Shown here piece after piece: positions 9,801 through 18,462 of a stretch of 64,000 nucleotides of DNA. Every line of letters begins with the position of its first letter. Position 1 is the stretch's first letter. The stretch covers positions 1,193,921-1,257,920 of the forward strand of contig NC_008942.1 of NCBI RefSeq assembly GCF_000015765.1. Direction: 5' to 3'. The notes under the pieces are model-generated. The model was not told the DNA's origin and ran no database searches. It worked only from the letters and a program-made list of their open reading frames with translations. The position numbers and the translations under genes are program-made. Origin of the DNA: Methanocorpusculum labreanum Z (GTDB taxonomy: Archaea > Halobacteriota > Methanomicrobia > Methanomicrobiales > Methanocorpusculaceae).

Positions 9801-10045
9801 GAGAAAAACCAACCGCGAATCGGCGCGAATCCGCCCTTCGGGCGAGAAGAATCGGATTTGCTATTCCTCACTTGAACTCGGCGGGTCTTATCGTCCCGCC
9901 GGTTCATCCCTCATCGGGAACGTTCGGGCAAATCCTGTCGCCGCCCCGGCGGCTCCTTGATTAGGGAGTAAAGATATCTTTTATTTCTGACTGGGGTGCG
10001 GGAAGGCGACTCCGGCGTGGAGCCCGACGCGGTGGAGAATCCTCA
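9801..10045. repeat. Left inverted repeat bounding the Vsr/GHKL/Dcm module (family-A variant)
   Basis: It starts with GAGAAAAACCAACCGCGAAT, as other A arms do, then continues with a variant interior. Bases 9909-9959 are, by eye, a perfect 51-base inverted match to 15291-15341. The similarity goes on with few mismatches through a GGGAGTAAAGATATCT segment (9964-9979) and, with gaps, to a GCGGTGGAGAA segment near 10030. Together with the copy at 15228-15495 it encloses the four-gene defence module. This repeat and the decayed B arm fill the gap 9632-10086. Confidence 0.85.
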
Positions 10046-10086: not shown

Positions 10087-10542
10087 TTAGTAGAATATTT
10101 CGTCTGGATAGTCATCAGCAGGATAATCATCCCAAAGCAGCATTTCCTTCACTAATTCCTTGAGTTTATATTCCACATCGTTCCCAAGTTCACATTCCCA
10201 AATTACGAAAACCCGCCACCCCATTTCCCGAAGCTGTGCATAATTTCTCTCATCGCGTAATTTATTTTGTTGAAATTTAGCAATCCACCACTCCGTATTC
10301 GTTTTGGGAATGGTGGCACGTTTGCACCCCGCATGACCATGCCAAAAACATCCATTCACAAAAATGACGGCTCGATATTTGGAAAGAACGAAGTCCGGTT
10401 TTCCCGGAAGATCGGTCCGACATCGTCGATAGCCGATATGAGATTCCCTCAGATAGGAAGCAACGAGTTGTTCCGGTTTAGTTTTCTTTGACCGAACTCG
10501 ACTCATCATCCAACTACGGTGTTCGGGAGTTACTCTATCCAT
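10087..10542 (-). CDS. vsr: Very short patch repair (Vsr-type) endonuclease
   Basis: The 151-residue protein begins MDRVTPEHRSWMMSRVRSKK, the usual Vsr start, and carries GKPDFVL (Asp50) followed by VNGCFWHGH (about 63-70), the catalytic Asp and His region. An NTEWW-type segment and WRVFVIWECEL follow. Vsr enzymes nick T:G mismatches that arise by deamination of 5-methylcytosine. In some restriction systems Vsr-like proteins act as the cleaving nuclease. Here the gene is transcribed away from an operon that ends in a cytosine-5 methyltransferase, which fits either role. It is AT-rich compared with the core genes, suggesting transfer. The divergent promoter region is 10543-10788. Confidence 0.95.
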   Translation of the reverse strand: MDRVTPEHRSWMMSRVRSKKTKPEQLVASYLRESHIGYRRCRTDLPGKPDFVLSKYRAVIFVNGCFWHGHAGCKRATIPKTNTEWWIAKFQQNKLRDERNYAQLREMGWRVFVIWECELGNDVEYKLKELVKEMLLWDDYPADDYPDEIFY

Positions 10543-10738
10543 GGTGAATTATTTATCGATTTGTTTGATTTTACTATGCTGCAAACATAACCACGTAAGC
10601 CGGGATTTCCCAACTCATCATAGCTTAATGCATATATCCATTAAACTCTATGCTGATAATATTCGTATTTCCAAACATAAGTGTGTTGACCACAACCGAT
10701 TATCTATATGAAATTAGAGATAGAATGAAATATTATTC

Positions 10739-10766
10739 ATCGACATATATTGTCGATTGATATATT
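10739..10766 (+). promoter_or_regulatory. Operator-like inverted repeat and TATA box before the GHKL operon
   Basis: ATCGACA (10739-10745) and TGTCGAT (10751-10757) form a perfect 7-bp-arm inverted repeat around TATAT. Directly after it, TGATATATT (10758-10766) is centred about 27 bases before the ATG at 10789, the distance expected for a leaderless archaeal transcript. The inverted repeat therefore overlaps the factor-B region of the promoter, a classic place for repression. No ribosome site precedes the ATG, in line with a leaderless message. Confidence 0.55.
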
Positions 10767-10788
10767 CCCACTGAATCCGATGATTTAA

Positions 10789-12948
10789 ATGATAAATGAA
10801 GAAACAATCCCCCTAAAAATCAGCCCAAGGGCATTCACTGCATTTGGAGCCGATCTCGTAACGAATGATAATATAGCCATTACCGAATTGGTGAAAAATA
10901 GTTACGATGCATTTGCCTACAATGTTGTGGTAGAATTTGGCGAAGATGAAGGAGGAGCGTACATCAAAATCATCGACGATGGACTTGGAATGACGCGTCA
11001 GGTAATCAAAGAGGTATGGGCTGTTCTTGCTACTAAACATAAAGTTAAAAATCCCCTTATTGAACGCGATGGCAAAATAAGGAAAGTCTCGGGAAACAAA
11101 GGGCTTGGTCGTTTTTCCGCAGCAAAACTTGGGAACACTATGGATATTTGGACGAAAAGTCCTGATGATGGATTTTTAAAGATAAAAATAAACTGGAAAA
11201 ACCTCGTAGACTTCGATGATCTGGGTGAGTGTCAAATCACAATGGAAGAACTTAACGATACAGCCATCTTCCAGAATCCCGGTACCGTTATCCGAATTGG
11301 TGATCTAAATTCCATATGGAGTCCTGAGAAGATATTGGAGACAAAGGATAGTTTATCCCGTTTAATTGCCCCGTTTAAAAATATTGATAATTTTACTATC
11401 CAACTCAGATCATCCACTATAGAAGGGCCTGTTAATATAACTGCCCCTAAATTTATTGAAAAACCCCCATACAAAATTACCGGCAATGTCGATGCAATAG
11501 GGACGATACATTGGGAATACACATATTCCCCGACAAACATTAACCATAATCCAAAAACCAAAACTGGAATAATAAACTGGAATGAAGGTAAATTAGGATT
11601 TACGGGTTACCAGGAGCAACTCTCTCTCCAGGAATGTAGTGGTGAAATGGATTATTCATGCGGTCCATTCAGTTTTGAAATAAGAGTTTGGGATTTAGAT
11701 GTGGAAAGCAGAGGAGAGATATCCGCACATTATGATATCGGAAAAAATGATATCAGACGTGCTCTAGCACAATACAAAGGGCTGTCAATCTATCGGGACA
11801 ATATTCTCGTTCTTCCTAAATCCGATGCTTCAAAAGATTGGTTGGGGATCGATTTACGTAGAGTTAGCAGAATCGGTAAACGAATCAGCACGAATCAAAT
11901 CATTGGCATAGTAAACATAAACTCAAAGGATAATCCAGAACTAAAAGACACAACCGATCGTGAAAAATTAATGGATACAAAAGAGTACAAGGAGTTCATC
12001 AATCTTCTTGGCTCAGTCATCAATGAACTGGAAAATTTACGATCTTTGGACAAAACCAGGGAATCGGAAACAAGCAGTAATGGGAAAAAACCCCTAGTGA
12101 ATCTTTTCACGAGTTTATCTGCAGAAAGATTGGTCGGGAAAGTCGAACTTGCAGTAGAAAAAGGGGAGGATAATAAACAAATTTTAAAATACGTCAATGA
12201 ATTCAACAATGAGAACAGAGAGAACTTAGATGATTTGCAGAAAAGAGTAACGTATTATGCACAAACCGCCTCGTTAGGTTCTGTGGCAACAGTTATTCTC
12301 CATGAATTACTTAATGGAATGAATGCCATTATAAGATTTATCAAGCGTGTTGATAAAACGTGTTCCCCATTAGAAACCAAGACTCGTGAGGCCCTCAATG
12401 ATGCTTCAGAGAGTCACGCACGGTTGGTTGATCTAGCACGGACTTTTTCCCCATTGGTCAGAAAAGATTTGTATAAGGCAGAATATAAATGCCTTGTGCG
12501 TGAAACGGTGGATAAGAGCATCCGTCTTATTCGTGCCGGAGATAATGCACAAGGAGTTGTGATTAATAATTATCTCCCTAATAACATTCTCCTCCCAATC
12601 CATGAAGGATTACTGCAAACGATATTTATCAACTTGCTCGACAATGCCTGCTACTGGATTCAACAGAATGGTCAAGAAAAAACAATCGATATAACGGCAA
12701 AAATAATAGATGACAACCAAAAAATAAAGATATTTGTTAGTGATACCGGCGTTGGGGTTTCGGAAGAAGAGTCTGAATGTATATTTGAAGCAGGAGAAAC
12801 GTCAAAATCCCAGGGATTCGGTATGGGATTGGTTATTGTGACTGAAATTTTAAGTTATTATGGCGGGAAAGTTGGGGTTCTGTTTCCAAGCTTATCAAGC
12901 GGAGCGACATTCGAAATTTGCATCCCGCTTGCAAAAGGAGCTGAATAA
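10789..12948 (+). CDS. Double GHKL protein: MutL/MORC/Hsp90-like ATPase fused to histidine-kinase-like module
   Basis: The 719-residue protein has two GHKL units. The N-terminal one shows AITELVKNSYDA (about 33-44, Asn box), IIDDGLGMT (about 63-71) and SGNKGLGRFSAAKLG (about 103-117), as in MutL, MORC and Hsp90 ATPases. The C-terminal part looks like a sensor kinase: SLGSVATVILHELLNGMN with a phospho-acceptor-like His near 505, Asn box INLLDNACYW (about 615), SDTGVGV (about 651) and QGFGMGL (about 675). There is no membrane segment, so a cytosolic ATP-driven sensor is likely. The next gene, one base overlapping, encodes a receiver domain. GHKL ATPases of the MutL/MORC type are known from restriction-modification operons. 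The sequence is strongly AT-rich, unlike flanking core genes. Confidence 0.88.
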   Translation: MINEETIPLKISPRAFTAFGADLVTNDNIAITELVKNSYDAFAYNVVVEFGEDEGGAYIKIIDDGLGMTRQVIKEVWAVLATKHKVKNPLIERDGKIRKVSGNKGLGRFSAAKLGNTMDIWTKSPDDGFLKIKINWKNLVDFDDLGECQITMEELNDTAIFQNPGTVIRIGDLNSIWSPEKILETKDSLSRLIAPFKNIDNFTIQLRSSTIEGPVNITAPKFIEKPPYKITGNVDAIGTIHWEYTYSPTNINHNPKTKTGIINWNEGKLGFTGYQEQLSLQECSGEMDYSCGPFSFEIRVWDLDVESRGEISAHYDIGKNDIRRALAQYKGLSIYRDNILVLPKSDASKDWLGIDLRRVSRIGKRISTNQIIGIVNINSKDNPELKDTTDREKLMDTKEYKEFINLLGSVINELENLRSLDKTRESETSSNGKKPLVNLFTSLSAERLVGKVELAVEKGEDNKQILKYVNEFNNENRENLDDLQKRVTYYAQTASLGSVATVILHELLNGMNAIIRFIKRVDKTCSPLETKTREALNDASESHARLVDLARTFSPLVRKDLYKAEYKCLVRETVDKSIRLIRAGDNAQGVVINNYLPNNILLPIHEGLLQTIFINLLDNACYWIQQNGQEKTIDITAKIIDDNQKIKIFVSDTGVGVSEEESECIFEAGETSKSQGFGMGLVIVTEILSYYGGKVGVLFPSLSSGATFEICIPLAKGAE

Positions 12949-14036
12949 TGAAAGTTCTTATTGTTGATGATCAACAGGCAACCGTTAAAGGAATCCGGGA
13001 TTATTGTGAGGATCAGGGGTGGATGTGCTGCATTATAGAGACATTCGAGAATAGTTATGAAAAACTTACCGATTACAATCCCGATGTTGTCATCCTTGAT
13101 TGGAAAAATCAGGAAACAGGTAGTTATGATGGAGAAGATATTCTTAAAAACATATGGGAAAATAGTTTCAGACCGGTTATAGTTTTTTCAGCAATGCCGC
13201 TCAGCGATTTAGAGGGAAGGTACAATCATCGTTTAATTAAAGTGATACAAAAAGGAGATGAGGAGCCGGTTATTCAATATCTCGAGAACATTAAGACCAC
13301 CGCTCCCGTCCTTTCAACAATTAGAACAGATTTTAACGACGCGATGACTCATGCATTGAATATTTTTGATGCAATTGATCAGACTCCCAATATTGAGGAG
13401 CGAGTCCAAAAATATGTCTTTGCAAAACGTGTTTTATCGCATTTCAGTCAGAAGATAGATGATGCTCAATTACCGCCTTGGACTCAATATCTCTGCCCCC
13501 CAATATCTACATCCTTGTGCACCTGTGATGTAGTTAGATGTATCAATGAGAATAGCAACCCGATAGGAAAACCGGAAGAATACTTCGTAATCCTTACAGC
13601 ATCTTGTGATATGGTGGATTCCAAGACCCAAACACCGAAGGTGAAAAATGTGTTATGCGCACAATGTTGTCCGAAAGAGTGGTATTATCAAAATGGTCAG
13701 TTTCAAGAAGGTACATCACGAAAGAAAATAGCCGCAAGCGTTGAAAAGAGTCTAAAAATGGGTTATACAAATGAATACCGTGTTGCTCTTCCAGAAATGC
13801 CGAGAATATTGCCGCATCTCACTATCGATCTGAAACAGATTATGCTCATCCCACTAACTGAAATTGCTCTCAGTCAGATGAACATTAATTCCGAGCAACA
13901 CAAATATTACAGAATAACCTCAATTGATAGTCCATATAGGGAACAGATCGTTTGGGCACATATGTTAAATTCATGTAGACCCGGAATTCCAGAGAGAGAT
14001 CTAGAGACATGGACAAATCACATAGCACCAAGTTAA
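12948..14036 (+). CDS. Receiver-domain protein with unknown C-terminal domain, partner of the GHKL protein
   Basis: The 362-residue protein starts with a complete response-regulator receiver domain: acidic pair Asp7-Asp8, phospho-acceptor Asp51 in VVILDWKN, Ser81 in VIVFSAM and Lys102 in VIQKGD. The remaining 230 residues show no known DNA-binding motif. They contain several Cys (LCTCDVVRC, TASCDMVDS, LCAQCCPKEW), possibly for metal binding. The ATG shares one base with the stop of the kinase-like gene, and its end overlaps the methyltransferase start by 28 bases, so the three proteins are made together. By analogy with two-component systems the GHKL protein should phosphorylate Asp51. That would make a restriction-type module under phospho-signal control, which is an inference. 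Confidence 0.82.
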   Translation: MKVLIVDDQQATVKGIRDYCEDQGWMCCIIETFENSYEKLTDYNPDVVILDWKNQETGSYDGEDILKNIWENSFRPVIVFSAMPLSDLEGRYNHRLIKVIQKGDEEPVIQYLENIKTTAPVLSTIRTDFNDAMTHALNIFDAIDQTPNIEERVQKYVFAKRVLSHFSQKIDDAQLPPWTQYLCPPISTSLCTCDVVRCINENSNPIGKPEEYFVILTASCDMVDSKTQTPKVKNVLCAQCCPKEWYYQNGQFQEGTSRKKIAASVEKSLKMGYTNEYRVALPEMPRILPHLTIDLKQIMLIPLTEIALSQMNINSEQHKYYRITSIDSPYREQIVWAHMLNSCRPGIPERDLETWTNHIAPS

Positions 14037-15067
14037 TTGCAATTGATTTTTTTTGTGGCGGGGGCGGAATTACCAAAGGGTTGTCCGATGCCGGGATTAA
14101 AGTACTGGGAGGTATCGACATCTCGCCCGATTTAAAGAGAACGTATGAAGAAAATAATCATAATAAATTCGTAAATTTTGATATTCGAACGATCTCCGGT
14201 AGTAATATATACAAAGAATTTCCTGAAATCGAGGGAGATGAAGATAATTTGCTTCTTGCCGGCTGTGCTCCGTGCCAACCCTTCAGTAAACAGCGTAGAG
14301 CAAATACCGAACACGTCGATAAGGATTTGCTCACGGAATTCGGACGTATAGTAAAAGATGTATTGCCCGCTCACCTTCTTATAGAAAATGTTCCGGGATT
14401 GATGAAAAAGGGTCATTCAGTTCTCGAAAATTTCTTAAAAATACTGGATGAGTGCAACTACTCATACGACTACAAAGTAGTTAATGCAAATGACTACGGC
14501 GTTCCTCAAAAAAGAAAACGATTGGTTATTATTGCATCTCGATTCTTCATCCCAAAGATTCCCGATGGAGAATATGGTCCGAATAATTCCGGTAAAAAAC
14601 CATATGTGACCGTAAGAGATGCTATTCTTTGCTATCCGCCAATACAGGCAGGAGAATCGGCAGATAGCGTGCCAAATCATTCAGCCGCATGCCTTAACGA
14701 CAAAAACTTGACGCGTATTCGGGCAACTCCTCACGATGGAGGGGATAGACGAGCTTGGTCATCCGAATTAGTCCTCGATTGTCATAAAGGAAAAACCGGT
14801 CATACGGATGTATACGGACGAATGGCATGGGATGACGTTGCCCCGACGCTTACGAGCCGCTGTGCGAGCCTTTCAAACGGGAGATACGGTCATCCGGAAC
14901 AAGACAGGGCAATTTCTCTGCGTGAAGCAGCCGCACTTCAAACATTTCCAGACGACTATATTTTTTACGGCAACAATGTATCCATTGGAAAACAGATCGG
15001 AAATGCCGTTCCCGTAAAACTCGCCGAGGTATTCGGGGAATATATCCTTAGTAACAGTAAAAAATAA
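14009..15067 (+). CDS. DNA (cytosine-5-)-methyltransferase
   Basis: The 352-residue enzyme methylates cytosine at C5 using S-adenosylmethionine. Visible motifs are I (DFFCGGGGITKGL, about 13-25), IV with the catalytic Cys (GCAPCQPFSKQ, Cys89), VI (LIENVPGL), VIII (PQKRKRLVII) and X (GKQIGNAVPVKLAE near the end). The stretch between VIII and IX, about residues 185-270, should be the target-recognition domain; the recognition sequence cannot be read from it. The gene overlaps the receiver gene by 28 bases and closes the operon. With the divergent Vsr gene it forms a methylation plus mismatch/cleavage pair. The AT-rich composition matches the whole module. Confidence 0.96.
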   Translation: MDKSHSTKLIAIDFFCGGGGITKGLSDAGIKVLGGIDISPDLKRTYEENNHNKFVNFDIRTISGSNIYKEFPEIEGDEDNLLLAGCAPCQPFSKQRRANTEHVDKDLLTEFGRIVKDVLPAHLLIENVPGLMKKGHSVLENFLKILDECNYSYDYKVVNANDYGVPQKRKRLVIIASRFFIPKIPDGEYGPNNSGKKPYVTVRDAILCYPPIQAGESADSVPNHSAACLNDKNLTRIRATPHDGGDRRAWSSELVLDCHKGKTGHTDVYGRMAWDDVAPTLTSRCASLSNGRYGHPEQDRAISLREAAALQTFPDDYIFYGNNVSIGKQIGNAVPVKLAEVFGEYILSNSKK

Positions 15068-15100
15068 GATTTCGTTTTTGAACTTTTCCAGCCACACTAA

Positions 15101-15170
15101 AAATAATGTGATGTACATCACATAATTTCCACGAATTATGTGATGAAACCCACACGATTATTTTAAAGAC
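15101..15170. repeat. Palindrome-containing 60-bp repeat, copy 1
   Basis: ATGTGATGTACATCACAT (15106-15123) is a perfect 18-base palindrome. It is followed by a second half site, ATTATGTGATGAAACCCAC (15135-15153). The whole block recurs, nearly identical, at 18175-18240 upstream of the AAA_14 ATPase gene. Here it lies behind the methyltransferase gene and has no obvious gene to control. Confidence 0.8.
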
Positions 15171-15227: not shown

Positions 15228-15495
15228 TTCTCCACCGCAGTCACGCCCCGCATCCTGAATCAAAAATAAGAGATATCTTTACTCCCTAAGCAAGGAGCCG
15301 CCGGGGCGGCGACAGGATTTGCCCGAACGTTCCCGATGAGGGAGGAGCAAGACTGCAAAGCAGGCTTGCGAGAGTGAGGAACAGCAAATCCGATTCGTCT
15401 CGCCCGAAGGGCGGATTTGCGCCGATTCGCGGTGGGATTTCTCTTGTGTCCGCACCCAGCCATACCCTTCCCGAAACGCGGTAAAATATCCCACA
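15228..15495. repeat. Right inverted repeat bounding the Vsr/GHKL/Dcm module (family-A variant)
   Basis: This is the inverted partner of 9801-10045. Bases 15291-15341 match 9909-9959 perfectly in reverse. It ends with a typical A outer end (ATTTCTCTTGTGTCCGCACC, then CATACCCTTCCCGAAACGCG). The rest of the gap 15068-15761 holds the palindrome block at 15101-15170 and an AT-rich leader before the CPBP gene. I see no gene in it. Confidence 0.85.
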
Positions 15496-18156: not shown

Positions 18157-18174
18157 CTTCTTCTCCCAAGCAGA

Positions 18175-18240
18175 CTGAAAATTATGTGATGTACATCACA
18201 TTATTTTCACAAATTATGTGATGAAACCCACAACTTATTT
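18175..18240. promoter_or_regulatory. Palindrome-containing 60-bp repeat, copy 2 (upstream of AAA_14 gene)
   Basis: The perfect palindrome ATGTGATGTACATCACAT sits at 18184-18201 and the extra half site ATTATGTGATGAAACCCAC at 18213-18231. It repeats 15106-15153 almost base for base. The position, 20-80 bases before the ATPase start on the minus strand, suits a promoter/operator. Confidence 0.6.
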
Positions 18241-18420: not shown

Positions 18421-18462
18421 CCCGCCCTAACATATAAACCCCAAAACGCCAACCTCCTATAC

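Follow-up and report, generated by a model that had tools for sequence, protein, structure and literature searches.

A sensor kinase and receiver protein with a predicted MazF/CcdB-like output domain, linked to a C5 methyltransferase and Vsr: a candidate defence module in Methanocorpusculum labreanum Z

Four genes at positions 10087-15067 of the window (a stretch of 64,000 nucleotides from the single-contig genome of Methanocorpusculum labreanum Z, 1,804,962 bases) encode a Vsr mismatch endonuclease, a sensor kinase with an additional MORC-like ATPase, a receiver protein with a conserved C-terminal domain and a C5-cytosine DNA methyltransferase. Because the kinase is fused to the ATPase, its receiver partner is intact and the pair recurs strongly beside C5 methylases, and more rarely beside Vsr, a phosphorelay tied to DNA modification is likely. 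The combination suggests that phosphate transfer switches an effector. The reading that we tentatively favour is that of a horizontally acquired, self-contained defence module in which methylation would be the self mark, the kinase would sense foreign DNA and phosphotransfer would arm an effector with a toxin fold.

All four reading frames are open at the positions given in Table 1. As follows from the coordinates, the kinase and receiver genes overlap by one base and the receiver and methylase genes by 28 bases, the methylase start lying inside the receiver gene, so that the overlaps of the three operon genes described in the first-pass annotation stand. The Vsr gene is divergent from these plus-strand genes across a gap of 246 bases. 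It is therefore a neighbour outside the operon, and operon membership is ruled out. Both the methyltransferase and the Vsr endonuclease that had been proposed from the letters alone are confirmed by their family models, and the methylase is a full PF00145 match, the sole one in a family scan of the 1.80-Mb genome. In Pfam, PADLOC and NCBIfam scans, no restriction nuclease was recognised among the four genes above any curated cut-off. Its closest self-contained relatives likewise yielded no restriction endonuclease, so the earlier label of a restriction-type module is not established.

Table 1. Positions in the window of the four genes, their predicted functional sites and the flanking inverted repeat.
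Feature	Position	Strand	Evidence or remark
Long inverted repeat, left arm	9805-10015		86-93% complementary to 15235-15440
Vsr mismatch endonuclease, 151 aa	10087-10542	-	TIGR00632 133.7 bits (cut-off 97.85); PF03852 1.6e-26
Sensor kinase, 719 aa	10789-12948	+	PF13589 7.6e-18; PF02518 5e-20; 52-sequence alignment
Sensor kinase, order of parts: N-terminal MORC/HgiDII-like GHKL ATPase, middle region, phosphoacceptor helix, catalytic ATPase	10789-12948	+	
His505 codon, predicted phosphoacceptor	12301-12303	+	Invariant in 52/52 homologues; next residue E or D in 51
Kinase C-terminal ATPase domain, residues 607-715, with N, G1 and G2 boxes	12607-12933	+	PF02518
Receiver-effector protein, 362 aa	12948-14036	+	PF00072 30.7 bits (cut-off 30.2); 44-sequence alignment
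Asp51 codon, predicted phosphoryl acceptor	13098-13100	+	Invariant in 43/43
Receiver C-terminal output domain, residues 146-362, predicted MazF/CcdB-like barrel	13383-14033	+	AlphaFold and structure matches
Cys220-Asp221 codons, core of the 'LTPxCD' motif	13605-13610	+	C in 43/43, D in 39/43
C5-cytosine DNA methyltransferase, 352 aa	14009-15067	+	PF00145 5.4e-59; TIGR00675 153 bits
Long inverted repeat, right arm	15235-15440		Genome copy 1209167-1209360

The fusion of a MORC-like GHKL ATPase to a complete kinase half, as first described, is borne out by Pfam matches to HATPase_c_3 at residues 28-128 and to HATPase_c at residues 607-715, and by the residues conserved in 52 aligned homologues, all of which carry both domains in this order. 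The N-terminal GHKL residues E33, N37, G65, G67, K104, G105 and R108 are invariant, and the window kinase thus has an N-terminal GHKL domain with ATP-binding motifs, as MORC/paraMORC ATPases do. In the second half, H505 and N615 are invariant, the G1 and G2 boxes are intact and N619, D652, G654, G656, G676, G678 and G680 are kept in 51 of the 52 homologues. In the middle region, R336 is conserved in 50. The N-terminal part also resembles Type II restriction proteins: the BbrUII/HgiDII family model (NF050001) matches residues 11-210 at 3.4e-19 (68.9 bits against a cut-off of 550), and a PADLOC Type II REase model matches at 3e-11.

The receiver domain is intact, as had been read from its key residues. 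None of 43 homologues departs from D8 or D51, all have T or S at position 81, and 42 have K or R in place of K102. Together with the H, N, G1 and G2 boxes of the kinase, the Asp pocket, Thr/Ser and Lys of the receiver complete the canonical two-component set. Dozens of homologues keep the two ATPase sites, H505 and the receiver site with little or no change, so the putative phosphorelay is kept under selection. The Cys-containing C-terminal domain noted in the first pass is likewise real and conserved: C220 and G346 are invariant, D221 is found in 39 and R344 in 41 of 43 homologues, and the alignment of 44 relatives displays an LTPxCD motif around Cys220 and a C-terminal RxGxP motif. Partners of about 450 amino acids that accompany other kinases have the same layout as the window protein, and a profile comparison of the 360-400-aa and ~450-aa receiver types gives a probability of 99.3 over 318 columns that include the Cys-Asp motif, which extends the conservation of the second half to remote relatives.

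Pfam, NCBIfam and PADLOC scans return nothing convincing for this second half of the protein, and the Pfam scan finds no recognised DNA-binding domain in the receiver protein. AlphaFold models the full receiver protein with a pLDDT of 90.6. When the full-length model was submitted to Foldseek, the matches listed were receivers and masked the output domain; the C-terminal domain was therefore modelled alone (pLDDT 88.8). All 50 PDB matches listed for this model are toxins of the MazF/CcdB family, with probabilities of 0.97-1, target-normalised TM values of 0.55-0.73 and E-values from 1.1e-3. In a library of viral models, PemK-like proteins and endoribonucleases rank on top. One row, from a plasmid collection, was left out of the first structure alignment. 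Homology to MazF by sequence is unsupported: a PDB sequence search with the output domain gave no match, a profile of 19 archaeal MazF proteins gave a probability of 0.5%, and PF02452, the MazF/PemK sequence family, gave no match in the Pfam scan. The output domain is thus predicted, from two structure libraries, to take the MazF/CcdB fold, and the resemblance is to be read as a prediction because sequence methods give nothing. A hand comparison of strand order indicates that the Arg-Pro and Thr positions of MazF are apparently unconserved, while Cys-Asp is conserved, and neither RNase nor toxin activity should therefore be assumed. The predicted fold points to an effector rather than to a regulator alone.

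A kinase profile was searched against archaea and against one genome per prokaryote species, and the best 80 loci of the latter search, 79 bacterial and one archaeal, were inspected; because they derive from these best 80 matches, the fractions that follow hold for near relatives and cannot be extended to nature as a whole. Under a strict rule, the gene next after the kinase encodes a receiver-type protein in no fewer than 64 of the 80 loci, from many phyla. A C5 methylase lies at most four genes from the kinase in 61, Vsr in 24 and all of them in 17. Recurrence, on which the first-pass annotation had staked its proposal, is hence found. More distant ORFs inside the same loci served as the control for enrichment. 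Of the 431 ORFs at most three genes from the kinase, 63 encode a C5 methylase and 21 Vsr; the 552 more distant ORFs include 4 and 5, respectively (odds ratio 23 and p 2e-19 for the methylase, p = 2e-4 for Vsr). The exact order Vsr-kinase-receiver-methylase occurs in three close relatives (L089, L092 and L117), and the order kinase-receiver-methylase in L085, L087 and L090. The closest relatives L085, L089, L090 and L117 contain this set only, with no other nuclease joined, and no restriction enzyme was recognised beside the minimal units of the closest self-contained relatives. In L024, on the other hand, kinase and receiver are added to a MORC-Z1-DUF4420-Vsr-methylase set, and apparent Type I genes adjoin the pair in L023 and L092.

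Other arrangements were also encountered. In two archaea (L074 and L075), a related kinase stands between a gene of ~420 aa and a receiver-like protein of ~415 aa, with no C5 methylase nearby; this is a further variant of the kinase-receiver system. In loci of another type from three archaeal genomes, one of the same genus (L076, L078 and L079), a GHKL-kinase of 763-858 aa precedes two short genes, one of about 180-210 aa and one of 190-205 aa, and then a gene of ~500 aa. Plasmids of Campylobacter coli and C. jejuni (records H13-H27) carry a full-length relative of the kinase that is annotated only as sensor histidine kinase. The viral contigs searched gave a single match, to the receiver only. 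Among phage records, a distant full-length kinase is present on two fragments of 5-6 kb, and two others match the kinase ATPase domain only. The profile of the output domain was too variable for scanning.

In the mechanism that we propose, the C5 methylase would mark a DNA site, as its family does, and Vsr would repair the T:G mismatches left by deamination of the methyl mark. The MORC-like GHKL half may close on DNA in an ATP-dependent manner and so separate unmarked or invading DNA from self. This sensing would control whether His505 is autophosphorylated and passes its phosphate on to Asp51, as the intact motifs of both proteins suggest. Phosphorylation might then free or dimerise the C-terminal domain with its predicted MazF/CcdB fold, which could attack RNA, DNA or some target protein, thereby stopping the cell or the invader. 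Its putative active centre would be the invariant Cys220-Asp221 with Arg344-x-Gly346-x-Pro348 rather than the MazF arginine. The anatomy of the proteins, the conservation of catalytic and phosphoacceptor residues, the linkage of the genes and the predicted fold carry this reading, and the HgiDII-like N-terminal half of the kinase and a type of cassette that elsewhere carries Type I restriction-modification (R-M), Gabija and a Dsr1-like system speak for defence. Against it weigh a fold match with an E-value of about 1e-3 and no sequence support, the apparent lack of conservation at the MazF Arg-Pro and Thr positions, and the relatives that adjoin other R-M parts (L024; L023 and L092), in which the pair could simply regulate restriction.

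A broader form of this proposal, held with more doubt, is that of a phosphorelay-gated toxin, in which a DNA-sensing MORC-clamp kinase would phosphorylate a receiver with a MazF/CcdB-fold effector and a new Cys-Asp centre, methylation being the self mark; it would possibly define an abortive-infection class that spans bacteria and archaea. Two-component signalling is usually tied to gene regulation. If the proposal is true, it would here directly trigger growth arrest during invasion, with a receiver wired to a toxin fold and an immune effector run directly by two-component signalling.

The alternative that survives best, although we consider it rather unlikely, is that the pair works as a two-component regulator of the expression or activity of the linked methylase or restriction genes, with a non-toxic C-terminal domain that binds DNA or a partner. 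MazF-type barrels also serve as binding folds, as in CcdB. Such a regulatory role is the published proposal for bacterial pairs (PMC8011034) and would suit L024, L023 and L092, where the pair lies beside other restriction genes. Yet the receiver protein has no recognised DNA-binding domain and the minimal units hold no recognised restriction enzyme to be regulated; it is mainly for the latter reason that an effector role is preferred over pure regulation.

Improbable, too, is a true restriction complex, in which an HgiDII-like ATP-driven DNA clamp would use the kinase half as a second ATPase, the receiver protein or Vsr would cut and the phosphate would be no signal. The N-terminal similarity to BbrUII/HgiDII and to the PADLOC Type II REase model fits this explanation, Vsr-fold enzymes do cut DNA and MORC-like ATPases do accompany endonucleases (PMC2292703), but the invariance of H505 in 52 homologues and of D51 in 43 is hard to explain without phosphotransfer, and Vsr is near only 24 of the 80 best relatives. 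A last alternative is an ordinary orphan methylase and its Vsr repair partner, joined by chance to a decaying or unrelated two-component pair. A methylase and Vsr without a restriction enzyme do occur (E. coli Dcm/Vsr), but this explanation is very improbable in view of the overlaps of 1 and 28 bases in the window, the intact motifs and the recurrence of the gene order across several bacterial phyla.

The favoured reading of a transferable defence module draws further on the genomic setting. The four genes are framed by a long inverted repeat, and this repeat (~150-210 bases) is matched 49 times in the genome, mostly by copies arranged as inverted pairs. There are 14 such pairs, of which ten are short (<0.9 kb), resembling MITE-type palindromes, and four are long. 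Besides the present module, the long pairs enclose a complete Type I R-M operon (L167), a 574-aa protein (L166) and a pair of 116-aa and 1133-aa proteins (L168). No transposase was seen inside these long pairs. In sister Methanocorpusculum genomes, long pairs (L211, L212, L214, L216 and L217) surround Gabija GajA/GajB, a DUF4062 gene, a relative of the L168 protein, a gene cluster that includes a HATPase_c_3 protein, and a Dsr1-like SIR2 gene that is divided between two frames. The orthologous site in sister genome G213 (L206, 3261-5462) is occupied by a HEC-01-like AAA ATPase (1.6e-64) and a second gene of 266 aa, and the one in G311 (L207) has neither cargo, its left flank continuing into sequence that matches window position 18427. 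The varied defence cargo of these cassettes and the swaps at orthologous sites mark the module as exchangeable defence cargo; the four-gene unit is apparently mobile, and the uncharacterised proteins that cassettes of this kind enclose are candidates for a defence role. Separately, a direct repeat of 67 bases (15088-15154 and 18166-18232, 88% identical) with the palindrome ATGTGATGTACATCACAT has one copy after the methylase and one upstream of a minus-strand ATPase gene, and is possibly a regulator site.

In a tree of the 52 kinases, the window kinase is the only archaeal member of a fully supported group of ten, the others stemming from Bacteroidota, Planctomycetota, Chloroflexota, Actinomycetota, Thermodesulfobacteriota and Myxococcota. 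Its sister (L086, 42% identity) belongs to a Bacteroidales bacterium, and the receiver protein is absent from the other Methanocorpusculum genomes searched. This placement and this absence fit acquisition of the module by transfer from bacteria.

Several known systems share parts of this unit. MORC/paraMORC ATPases have been described with methylases, Vsr, Z1 helicases and nucleases (Iyer et al. 2008, PMC2292703). The window unit likewise unites a GHKL ATPase, a cytosine methylase and Vsr in one neighbourhood, but it includes no Z1 helicase, DUF4420 nuclease or separate MORC gene, and a kinase half and a receiver are present in addition. The BbrUII/HgiDII Type II enzymes (NF050001) have a similar N-terminal GHKL region, whereas the C-terminal half of the window protein is a histidine kinase. 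As in Type II R-M a DNA methyltransferase is present, while no cognate restriction endonuclease is recognised. With MazF/PemK and CcdB toxins, the receiver C-terminal domain shares the predicted fold of the model, yet it differs in sequence, in having no PF02452 match and in its conserved residues. The Fig. 6F legend of DefensePredictor, a machine-learning study (2026, PMC13092281), names HATPase and REC among the domains of predicted, unvalidated defence systems; the likeness lies in these domain names, a histidine-kinase-like ATPase and a receiver.

Closest is the predicted two-component pair HEF_HK (PF19191)/Response_reg_2 (PF19192), linked to R-M in bacteria (Bellieny-Rabelo et al. 2021, PMC8011034). 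Tying a two-component pair to R-M is therefore not a new idea. The text of that paper, which concerns bacteria, does not discuss the output domain, and no experimental test of such R-M-linked pairs was found in the literature searched. Both systems consist of a kinase with N-terminal HATPase_c_3 and C-terminal HATPase_c, an adjacent receiver, a C5 methylase and frequently Vsr, and the window-type and ~450-aa receiver proteins are homologous over their full length. PF19191, however, gives no match to the window kinase up to E = 1 and matches only 2 of the 52 kinase homologues at E <= 0.01. The L116 kinase falls just under the PF19191 cut-off and belongs, with its sister L119, to another clade than the window kinase. 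PF19192 gives the window receiver 18 bits against a cut-off of 27, and a search for its members in archaea and in the genomes of eight relatives found none over the cut-off. The window pair has the same architecture and setting but passes neither Pfam model; it is best regarded as divergent, and remotely related to the wider HEF_HK/Response_reg_2 family. New with respect to the published pairs are that no separate restriction nuclease was found, and the invariant Cys220 and predicted MazF/CcdB fold of the receiver C-terminal domain. The system is placed in archaea and in a mobile-looking cassette, and, if the favoured reading is true, published R-M-linked kinase pairs that are mechanistically blank would gain an output that can be tested through the residues H505, D51 and C220.
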